Below the pieces are notes generated by a model. The model was not told the origin of the DNA and searched no databases. It saw only the letters and a program-made list of their open reading frames with translations. 64,000 nucleotides of DNA, taken from an uncultured Desulfomonile sp. (lineage in GTDB: Bacteria > Desulfobacterota > Desulfomonilia > Desulfomonilales > Desulfomonilaceae). Position 1 is the stretch's first letter; every line of letters starts with the position of its first letter. The translations under genes were made by a program, and so were the position numbers. Shown here in pieces: positions 12,910 to 22,934 of the stretch. The stretch lies in the NCBI GenBank assembly GCA_903952205.1, contig CAJBEZ010000036.1:124001-188000 (forward strand). Direction: 5' to 3'.

Positions 12910-15003
12910 CTAGCGTCTCTCTCTGGGCTGCTGTCTGGGGTTTCTTCTCGTCCTTTGATTGTCCTGTTCCTGAGGTCTGTTAGGTCTGGGTGGACGTTTC
13001 ATGTCTTCTAGCGCCACACCTAAAGGCCCTCCTCGTACTACAGTTGTGGTTATTTCACCGTTATTGGATACACTCACTGTCACCTGTGGACTTCGACTAT
13101 ACTCCTCCACCAGTTTTTTTACAGTCGCGACCCTTAACCCTGTTTCACCGGCGTATTCAATCAATACATCCCCGGGAACTATGCCGACTCGATCGGCGAT
13201 CCCACCTTTCTGGACTTCTAAGATCTTTACCCCCGGCGAAGTTTCCAATTCCTGTAACCGGGCAAGAATTATCCGAGCGTTAATGCTGTCACCCATCTTC
13301 CTAAATTCTGTCAGGGCTTCCGTGTAAAGTTCCTTGCTTTTGAAAGTTCTGTTTCTTTCAGCGTATATTCCAGCGAGAGTGGCCTTGATTCTGGCTATCC
13401 ATTTTGGATCGTCTCTCTTTTCGTAAAGTTTCAGTGCTTTTTCAAGGTCTTCATTAGCATTGTCCCATTGTTGTTGTTGCGCTGCGAACATAGCCTGGCG
13501 GAACAGCCTTATTCCATCTTCTTCGGTTGGTGGGAGCGGTTCGGACTGAGAAGACTCACGGATCTGGACCAGATCCGAGTTCAGGTTCTGGGCGGTCTTG
13601 ATGTCAGGCTCTTCTTCCATGACCACTCGGAAACCAAGATTCCAGAAACTCATTGTATCGCCGGAAAAGCCTCTGAATGCGCACCTGCAATCGGTTGGAC
13701 TGGCAAACCAGTTGCCCCCCTTGTTTACTCTCGATGTTCCTGTCTGTGGACCCTGAGGGTCCTTAATAGGTGAAGTTTCATAATAATTTCGGTCATAGTA
13801 ATCTTGGACCCACTCCATAACATTCCCACCCATATCATAAAGACCAAAACCATTTGGAGGGAAGCTCCCCACGGGCGAGACCTGCTCATAACCATCATTT
13901 ACAGTGGTCATACTTTCAGGCAATTTAGAATTACCGTCTCCAAAATTCGTGTCTTTATCGCCAGGAAGTTTGTCTCCCCAAGGAAACCTGGCCCATACAG
14001 CTCCTCCTCGGCAAGCCATTTCCCATTCAGCTTCCGTGGGTAGCCGGTATTTTTTTTTCTCCTTTCTACTGAGCCATTTGCAGAAAGCCTGCGCGTCGTT
14101 CCAAGAAACAAATACTACTGGTTGGTTATCAGCAATTTTCCATGGAAGGTTATCCCATTTCATATTTTTCTGAGGAACCCATCTGTTTTCCTTATTGCTG
14201 AAAATCATTCCTCCGTCGCCTTTTTCAGGGTCGGTTTTATATTTCGTATCGTTCACAAAATCTCTGAACTGTTTTACATTGACCTCATACGCGCCGATGT
14301 AAAAGGGCCGAGTTATGCGGACCGGGTGCAGTGGCGTTTCATCCTGAAACCATTGTTTATGGCCTTCTCTCCAAATTAGGCGAAAAGTTAACCTTAGCCA
14401 ATCCGATTCTTGTTTTGGACTTCCCATCATGTATTCCTGCGCTGGGATTCTCACCAGATTCATACCTATAGAATTAACGTGTACATCTGGTTTTTTCGCT
14501 GACTCCAACAACATGTTCAGTCCCTGCAAGGATCTGAGCCAATTGGAGCAGTCTCGGCTTTCTCCAGTGATTTGTTGGCATTCCTTCATGGTATTCCGAA
14601 AGACTTCAATGGCTCGATTAGAATCTCCTGACAGCGCCAGTTCTCCTGCCCTCTTGATATTTTCGGGAATAGTGGAGGCGCTTGTCTTGGGAGCATCCTT
14701 GGAACTTATTTGGGTCTCCTGACCCTGGGCGGCTATCACGCAGGGTTCCAAAAACGCTAATCCTACGGCAATTGCGATGAAATATGATTTTCCTGTTATC
14801 AGTTTCAGATTTTCTATTGATTTTCGGACTGAGACGAGGTGGGATCGTAAACCGTCCTTGATCACAGGATTAATATGTTTAAGATTAAAAGCTATTATTT
14901 TAAAAAGATGATATATTTTAGCAAGGTTTTTTGTCAGTTTTTGTTCAATTGACTTATTGATAAACATATTTATCACCTTGATATTGATTTTTATTTTGAT
15001 CAT
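12910..15003 (-). CDS. Exported SUMF1-domain protein with TPR and PDZ domains
   Basis: 697 residues. A basic N-terminus leads to a hydrophobic segment at 73-92 (signal or anchor), then a formylglycine-generating-enzyme (SUMF1) domain at 178-463, helical TPR-like repeats at 495-585, a PDZ domain at 590-665 (GIADRVGIVPGDVL) and an Arg/Pro/Gln-rich tail. In true FGEs two cysteines oxidise the sulfatase; here the first is Ala434 (NWFASPTDC) and only the second, Cys439, remains. Sulfatase activation is therefore unlikely, and the domain may be a binding or structural module in the periplasm. AGGA and AAGGTG sites precede ATGs at 15003 and 14967 respectively, so either could start it. Confidence 0.87.
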   Translation of the reverse strand: MIKIKINIKVINMFINKSIEQKLTKNLAKIYHLFKIIAFNLKHINPVIKDGLRSHLVSVRKSIENLKLITGKSYFIAIAVGLAFLEPCVIAAQGQETQISSKDAPKTSASTIPENIKRAGELALSGDSNRAIEVFRNTMKECQQITGESRDCSNWLRSLQGLNMLLESAKKPDVHVNSIGMNLVRIPAQEYMMGSPKQESDWLRLTFRLIWREGHKQWFQDETPLHPVRITRPFYIGAYEVNVKQFRDFVNDTKYKTDPEKGDGGMIFSNKENRWVPQKNMKWDNLPWKIADNQPVVFVSWNDAQAFCKWLSRKEKKKYRLPTEAEWEMACRGGAVWARFPWGDKLPGDKDTNFGDGNSKLPESMTTVNDGYEQVSPVGSFPPNGFGLYDMGGNVMEWVQDYYDRNYYETSPIKDPQGPQTGTSRVNKGGNWFASPTDCRCAFRGFSGDTMSFWNLGFRVVMEEEPDIKTAQNLNSDLVQIRESSQSEPLPPTEEDGIRLFRQAMFAAQQQQWDNANEDLEKALKLYEKRDDPKWIARIKATLAGIYAERNRTFKSKELYTEALTEFRKMGDSINARIILARLQELETSPGVKILEVQKGGIADRVGIVPGDVLIEYAGETGLRVATVKKLVEEYSRSPQVTVSVSNNGEITTTVVRGGPLGVALEDMKRPPRPNRPQEQDNQRTRRNPRQQPRERR

Positions 15004-15039
15004 ATCAAAAATTCCTTGACAAAAAGTAGAATCAGAGGA

Positions 15040-15067
15040 ATTGTAGCAGAGAAATGGGGTGAGTCAA
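15040..15067 (-). promoter_or_regulatory. Sigma70-type promoter of the SUMF1-TPR-PDZ gene
   Basis: On the minus strand TTGACT and TACAAT are 16 bases apart, with the -10 about 37 bases before the start codon at 15003. Both boxes match the consensus 5/6. Confidence 0.6.
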
Positions 15068-15128: not shown

Positions 15129-15157
15129 TTGACAACATTGCTTAAAAGTGGTACCGA
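15129..15157 (+). promoter_or_regulatory. Possible promoter of the Ser-rich repeat gene
   Basis: A perfect -35 TTGACA (15129-15134) is followed after 17 bases by TACCGA, a poor -10. It would give a leader of about 80-90 bases. The -35 is convincing and the -10 is not. Confidence 0.35.
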
Positions 15158-15252
15158 TTAACAAACGTTTTTTGAATCTTTAAGAGGGAGCAACTGTTTT
15201 CGATTAGAGAACAGCGAATGTATTCTCGTTTAATGAGGAGGTAATGATTTCA

Positions 15253-15648
15253 ATGAGAAGATTTGCAGTGACGCTCGCGGTTGTAGGTATGGTTATGTTG
15301 TTTGCTTCATACAGCTTTGGATTCTTTGCTTGGGCTCCTTATTCGTCCTGGGGCAATGCATCATCCAGTAGTAGCAGCAGCGGAACCTATACAGCTAGTT
15401 CATCAAGCAGCGGTTCTTATTGGCCCGCCAGCTCTTCAAGCAGCAGTGGAACAGTGGCTTATTGCTGCGCCCCGGCTTCCAGCAGCAGCAGCGGTTCTTA
15501 TTGGCCCGCCAGCTCTTCAAGCAGCAGTGGAACAGTGGCTTATTGCTGCACCCCGGCTTCCAGCAGCAGCAGTGGTTACTATTGGCCCGCCAGCTCTTCA
15601 AGCAGCGGCTACTACCCTGCAAGTAGTTCATCAAGCGGTTGGTTCTAA
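15253..15648 (+). CDS. Secreted low-complexity Ser/Trp/Tyr-rich repeat protein
   Basis: 131 residues from ATG 15253. A signal peptide (MRRFAVTLAVVGMVMLFASYSFG) is followed by a chain made almost entirely of Ser runs spaced by short aromatic or Cys motifs: SYWPASSSSSSG and AYCCAP or AYCCTP. It ends SGWF. Two 81-base DNA repeats underlie the protein. I know no family match. GGAGG at 15237-15241 is too close to the ATG at 15244 and better placed for the one at 15253. A strong terminator follows, so it is a single, probably well-expressed gene. Surface adhesion, a matrix or a cross-linked Cys/Tyr role is conceivable but unproven. Confidence 0.75.
   Translation: MRRFAVTLAVVGMVMLFASYSFGFFAWAPYSSWGNASSSSSSSGTYTASSSSSGSYWPASSSSSSGTVAYCCAPASSSSSGSYWPASSSSSSGTVAYCCTPASSSSSGYYWPASSSSSGYYPASSSSSGWF
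15406..15567 (+). repeat. Two 81-base tandem repeats in the Ser-rich gene, plus a partial third
   Basis: Units 15406-15486 and 15487-15567 differ at one base (G 15469 against A 15550, Ala to Thr). A partial third copy runs to about 15606 with a few changes. Each unit encodes 27 residues. The near identity suggests recent duplication or ongoing conversion, so copy number may vary between strains. Confidence 0.95.
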
Positions 15649-15706
15649 AGACTAATTGTTAGTGAAAAGGCTTTTTCTTAGCTTTTTAACTTAAAAAGCA
15701 TATTGG

Positions 15707-15742
15707 AAAAAAGCGATCTTTTGATTGAGGATCGCTTTTTTT
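15707..15742 (+). terminator. Rho-independent terminator after the Ser-rich gene
   Basis: AAAAAAGCGATC pairs with GATCGCTTTTTT around an 11-base loop, and a run of seven T closes it. It is the clearest intrinsic terminator in the window. Confidence 0.9.
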
Positions 15743-22601: not shown

Positions 22602-22934
22602 CTAGTTCTTGGGGCGATTGCTTCTGAGGCTCTCCGATTCGTTGAGTTGATCCACGGGGATCCTCTGAACTGTCATTTCGCCGGAGGCGTTATCTTTCTT
22701 GAAAATCCAGAGTCTCCCGGTTTCGGCGTCCAACATGAAAGTGTGACCTTTTATGTTGGGAGAGACAAATATTTGAAATCTACCCGAACCCGTCAGATAA
22801 CCCCCTAATTCTTGTGGTTTGGTCGATCCGGAGGTGGTGTCTTTTCCCAGCGGCCATTGAGCGAAAGATTCGACACAAGAAAATGTTATGATCACGAACA
22901 AGGCAAAAGATAGTAGCAATAAGTTCCGCGCCAT
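22602..22934 (-). CDS. Small exported protein, function unknown
   Basis: 110 residues with a signal peptide (about 1-25, cleavage likely after SFAQ or nearby) and a mature part with a beta-rich segment: GSGRFQIFVSPNIKGHTFMLDAETGRLW. The pattern of a short beta sheet with DxETGRxW suggests a repeat or blade motif seen in some secreted proteins, but I recognise no family. It is upstream of asd on the same strand and may be co-transcribed. Confidence 0.6.
   Translation of the reverse strand: MARNLLLLSFALFVIITFSCVESFAQWPLGKDTTSGSTKPQELGGYLTGSGRFQIFVSPNIKGHTFMLDAETGRLWIFKKDNASGEMTVQRIPVDQLNESESLRSNRPKN

Follow-up and report, generated by a model that had tools for sequence, protein, structure and literature searches.

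The [G/S]Y[G/S] domains of FUS-type proteins and silk sericin are eukaryotic low-complexity sequences with little or no charge, in which tyrosines or other aromatic residues are regularly placed between serine and glycine spacers. Functional amyloids such as CsgA and FapC are small, Sec-exported proteins that are disordered on secretion and are built from imperfect repeats of variable number (PMC9268375). The disordered domain of Moraxella LbpB, which is anionic and helical, co-condenses with cationic peptides, and it provides an earlier example of a bacterial low-complexity segment that works through phase separation outside the cell (PMC11022072).

The stretch of DNA analysed in the current study (the window, 64,000 nucleotides) carries a gene for a Ser/aromatic repeat protein that can be compared with each of these systems. 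Like CsgA and FapC, the protein is small, apparently Sec-exported and repeat-built with a variable repeat number, but it has no sequence relation to them and consists of PA-S5-G repeats with Tyr/Trp instead of beta-strand repeats. Besides, the chain is uncharged, whereas the LbpB domain is strongly anionic and its condensation rests on charge. By analogy, the protein would work most like the low-complexity sticker-and-spacer proteins, since it shares with FUS-type domains and sericin the little charge and the Ser/Gly spacers between aromatics, although it is bacterial, has no homology to them and differs in its Trp-Pro-Ala modules, its optional cysteines and its short chain. No report on this protein was found in the literature. 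The features of the locus are as follows:

12910 to 15003, minus strand: gene of a probably exported FGE-like, TPR and PDZ protein (Pfam), the divergent partner
15016 to 15044, plus strand: distal promoter-like element TTGACA-N17-AATTGT, overlapping the divergent promoter
15040 to 15067, minus strand: promoter-like site of the divergent FGE-like gene, TTGACT-N16-TACAAT, found by consensus scan and conserved in the leaders
15129 to 15157, plus strand: proximal promoter-like element TTGACA-N17-TACCGA, with TAGCGA in place of TACCGA in many orthologs
15194 to 15214, plus strand: 5' leader hairpin CUGUUUUC-GAUUA-GAGAACAG, with a counterpart in most aligned leaders
15235 to 15242, plus strand: Shine-Dalgarno sequence GAGGAGGT, present in 14 of the 15 aligned leaders, L007 having TAGGAGGT
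15253 to 15648, plus strand: gene of the Ser/aromatic repeat protein (131 amino acids plus stop), with orthologs in 17 of 18 family genomes and dN far below dS
15253 to 15321, plus strand: part encoding the predicted Sec signal peptide MRRFAVTLAVVGMVMLFASYSFG, kept in all full-length orthologs, with cleavage inferred before FFAWAP
15322 to 15645, plus strand: mature part, with the cap FFAWAPYSSWG, then seven aromatic modules that have S5-7 G spacers between them, and a C-terminal GWF
15406 to 15486, plus strand: 81-base unit 1 (SYWPA-S6G-TVAYCCAPA-S...)
15487 to 15567, plus strand: 81-base unit 2, 80/81 identical to unit 1
15568 to 15606, plus strand: partial third copy of 39 bases, 92% identical to the reference
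15706 to 15742, plus strand: intrinsic terminator-like hairpin with a T run
15765 (or 15741) to 16238, plus strand: lipocalin-like lipoprotein gene, the downstream partner

The open reading frame and its start agree with the original prediction, which described a secreted Ser-rich protein with a good ribosome site. The ATG at 15253 lies 10 nt downstream of the Shine-Dalgarno sequence, and an alternative in-frame ATG at 15244, only 1 nt past it, is absent from most relatives in the aligned leaders. The mature chain, predicted to begin at residue 24, comprises 108 amino acids, 44% of them Ser; aromatics number 19 and Cys 4, and charged residues are absent. The Ser runs reported before are also borne out, with eight runs of at least five residues in the mature part against a mean of 0.93 and a maximum of 4 in 2000 residue shuffles.

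Codon comparisons of the mature part demonstrated strong purifying selection on the frame. Between the orthologous loci L001 and L004, 40 synonymous and 5 nonsynonymous codon differences were counted (dN 0.033, dS 1.28), and the corresponding values were 41 and 4 for L001-L005 and 19 and 2 for L001-L009. The Ser runs are encoded by mixed TCN and AGY codons, and between genera the codon alignments revealed up to 11 conserved serines per pair that switch between the two codon boxes, each switch needing more than one base change; the runs have therefore been selected as protein features and not produced by slippage. AGC-rich codons and a long exact duplication, which replication slippage or unequal exchange could generate, are what might be expected of a fortuitous low-complexity frame or a DNA repeat with no protein product, but the frame, the signal peptide, the motif grammar and dN far below dS are kept across genera, which refutes this explanation and leaves it a probability close to nil. 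Judged from these sequence data, 15253-15648 is a genuine gene.

The two full 81-base units differing at a single base were located as originally described (15406-15486 and 15487-15567). Within the genus, units 1 and 2 inside one genome are 92-98% identical, whereas the corresponding unit compared between two genomes is mostly 77-90% identical (93-95% for the closest pair, L005-L006), and the codon alignments contain lineage-specific synonymous changes common to both units. The units are therefore being homogenised within each gene, whether through conversion or because they are re-duplicated time and again. The L009 ortholog has one 81-base unit fewer.

Searches with the protein query identified orthologs in 17 of the 18 genomes of the window's family of sulfate-reducing-type bacteria, covering 10 of 11 genera and all eight high-quality genomes; an order-level search covered the identical 18 genomes. 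Homologous loci lacking the frame, the outcome by which the prediction could have failed, were thus not what was found. The remaining family genome, G015, also lacks the lipoprotein gene and the divergent gene, so its case is possibly an assembly gap. The class search included 24 sister-family genomes, none of which held a credible ortholog, one of them (G025) giving a weak match with internal stops. A profile run against 395 genomes of the phylum returned nothing credible outside the family. The two weak matches from that search were rejected, one (G117) being an unrelated short exported protein that aligned in the signal peptide and the other (G024) having an internal stop in frame. Divergent second copies occur at unrelated places in three genomes (G010, L020 1501-1869; G013, L019 1501-1842; G017, L026), and these loci have no flanking gene in common with one another; the G010 copy ends with the basic tail RRRLMRRTYW.

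Sequence searches of Pfam, NCBIfam, PHROGs and PDB yielded no relative of the protein, and tblastn against plasmids and phages gave no match, a weak negative given the low-complexity filter of BLAST. An Rfam scan of the window found one tRNA elsewhere and nothing else. By these searches the protein has no described family and is lineage-specific, and it exemplifies a low-complexity gene missed by family databases and filtered similarity searches. Moreover, a nearly pure, charge-free Ser/aromatic polymer has been kept while neighbouring orthologous genes fell to about 40-80% identity, and the spacing grammar of PA-S5-G-aromatic is unchanged over that divergence. About 15 naturally diverged sequences are thereby available for probing which sticker-and-spacer features are selected outside the cell.

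The module grammar is kept across the orthologs. The cap follows the pattern [FY][FY]AWAP[YF], typically FYAWAPYASWG, and precedes 5-7 short aromatic modules (variants SYWPA, TVAYCCAPA or AYCCxPA, YNYNCMPA, YSYGCMPA, YWPA and YYPA) separated by a Ser run, mostly of 4-8 residues, plus Gly. Counting the orthologs together with the G013 second copy, all 116 runs of at least four serines are followed by Gly and 80 of the 116 are preceded by Pro-Ala, and the chain ends in Trp plus an aromatic residue, usually GWF or GWY, in nearly all orthologs. Every ortholog contains aromatic residues, 15-24 per chain. Of the 15 main-locus orthologs scored for charge, 14 have none and one has a single C-terminal Arg. 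Alternating aromatic stickers and Ser/Gly spacers with low charge were thus found in these proteins, although the aromatics are more evenly placed than in shuffles in some orthologs only (equally even shuffles make up a fraction of 0.0015 to 0.36, and of 0.10 for the window protein). AlphaFold2 gave no fold for the protein (mean pLDDT 40.3, pTM 0.18), the signal peptide alone being structured, and with just 12 sequences this is weak proof of disorder.

Our preferred reading, held tentatively at a probability of roughly 0.45, is a disordered, Sec-exported protein of the sticker-and-spacer type, whose copies bind one another via Tyr/Trp at the cell envelope and are anchored or assisted by the products of the neighbouring genes. 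Export is well supported as a prediction because the signal peptide is conserved, and this peptide would be cleaved from the chain afterwards. The Tyr/Trp patches may then serve as the stickers, kept apart by Ser-Gly runs that would form hydrated, flexible spacers. Chains joined to each other in this way would build a matrix within or on the envelope, be it a gel, a coat or something fibre-like, and the lipoprotein and the FGE-like/TPR/PDZ protein would anchor the chains or help their assembly. Such assembly would need neither ions nor disulfides. The cross-linking through Cys pairs that had been proposed is not supported as a core function, since the pairs are not conserved: two orthologs (L014 and L017) have no Cys, and the remaining ones carry 2 to 10, the ten being in L010. 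Where present, Cys may reinforce the matrix as an optional element. Adhesion, the other function proposed originally, is a possibility. Overall, the protein is a candidate envelope material for Desulfomonile-type bacteria.

Membership of the curli-type functional amyloids is suggested by the small, exported, repeat-built chain of CsgA-like size (PMC9268375) that is rich in Ser, Gly and Tyr, but it is improbable. The CsgG secretion pore was found in none of the 18 family genomes (four controls positive) and curlin repeats (PF07012) likewise in none (E. coli control positive), nor did the protein itself have a Pfam match, and on the absence of both from the family curli membership was rejected. 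Additionally, module lengths vary, which argues against a regular beta-helix register.

The main rival to the sticker-and-spacer reading is a mucin-like glycosylated surface coat, in which the Ser runs would be O-glycosylated after export and the aromatic modules would serve enzyme recognition or spacing, so that a hydrated glycoprotein layer results. The strict selection of the runs as runs is consistent with it, and so is the Pro-Ala that usually precedes them, a context common in O-glycosylated stretches. However, the conserved trio of genes includes no glycosyltransferase, most flanking genes common to the loci seem to encode hydrolases or enzymes of metabolism, Ser is used almost to the exclusion of Thr, and a glycosylated coat has no need for aromatic conservation; we regard it as unlikely.

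The genomic context bears on the assisted self-association that we favour. In all loci long enough, the Ser/aromatic gene lies between the divergent FGE-like/TPR/PDZ gene and the lipoprotein gene, with conserved metabolic genes beyond the latter in most loci. The Ser/aromatic protein, the lipoprotein and the TPR-PDZ region of the divergent gene product have identical distributions, each occurring in the same 17 of the 42 genomes of the class. What suggests a partnership is that the genes are neighbours and co-occur, and vertical descent of a single locus would explain this equally well. Farther along the window, at 22602-22934, another small protein, which looks exported and has no match in Pfam, is likewise kept near the locus through much of the family.

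In the lipoprotein, the lipobox Cys25 after the N-terminal signal is invariant in 16 orthologs, and 7 of the 16 members match Lipocalin_4. Its AlphaFold2 model is a confidently predicted beta barrel (pLDDT 85.5), and Foldseek related it to bacterial lipocalin-like proteins (E 2e-4 to 4gzv, TM about 0.5-0.6), with YedD among the matches. This fold, and a gene that always adjoins the Ser/aromatic gene in the same 17 genomes, would fit a lipoprotein that binds or chaperones the uncharged aromatic chain, the locus then serving envelope maintenance and not a matrix. A terminator-like hairpin stands between the two genes, so their co-expression is unproven, and we consider this role quite unlikely.

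As for the divergent neighbour, the FGE-like lipoproteins GldK/PorK and PvdO likewise have an FGE-like fold in exported proteins; the neighbour differs in its extra TPR and PDZ parts, and the Ser/aromatic protein itself is unrelated to them. The place of the FGE-like gene beside the Ser/aromatic gene in loci long enough, and the resemblance of CAPA, CTPA and CVPA to the start of the sulfatase motif CxPxR, raise the idea that the FGE-like protein oxidises the Cys of the CxPA motifs to formylglycine. In the alignments, however, all orthologs have Ala or Ser at the position of human FGE Cys336 and Cys, Asp or Gly at that of Cys341. The catalytic Cys pair is therefore not conserved, which makes a formylglycine-generating enzyme unlikely, and the CxPA motifs have no Arg and the L014 and L017 orthologs no Cys at all. 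Formylglycine formation is largely refuted by these alignments and is very hard to credit; the FGE-like/TPR/PDZ protein probably has a structural or binding role.

A more specific version of assisted self-association would make the Ser/aromatic protein the main material of an envelope structure specific to the family Desulfomonilaceae, for instance the collar of Desulfomonile, assembled by stickers with help from the partners. A collar-like invagination of the cell wall is reported to be distinctive of Desulfomonile (PMC7773648). The sole link is that collar and locus are both confined to the lineage as far as examined, and this version is very doubtful.

The sequences around the gene suggest strong expression. 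All aligned leaders contain AGGAGGT, and the leader sequence is unique within the genome. The proximal TTGACA, part of an element below the threshold of the consensus scan, lies between -122 and -132 in the leaders of all aligned orthologs; the distal one, part of an element absent from the scan output, lies between -234 and -252 in nearly all orthologs. In the leader hairpin, 95.5% of cells are paired over 11 distinct sequences, compared with 48-64% when the pairing is slid; covariation was not significant (51/500 shuffles), and the claim is limited to a conserved hairpin, which might possibly stabilise the mRNA. Since the Shine-Dalgarno sequence, promoter elements and leader hairpin are conserved, the gene is probably well expressed. 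With selection on the frame and presence in 17 of 18 genomes added, the claims of secretion and expression are well supported, and the predicted strong terminator corresponds to the hairpin at 15706-15742, similar hairpins being readable 3' of the gene in the aligned orthologs.

Synonymous changes in three within-genus pairs affected 0, 1 and 0 of the 23 signal-peptide codons compared with 34, 40 and 41 of the 106-108 mature codons (Fisher p 0.0001-0.001 per pair, the pairs not being independent). Given a dS near 1 elsewhere, this near-absence of synonymous change at 15253-15321 makes a constraint at the RNA level likely, and suggests one on translation initiation and high expression. Upstream, the plus-strand and minus-strand promoter-like elements at 15016-15067 are conserved, overlap and have their -10 region in common, and they possibly form a bidirectional promoter.
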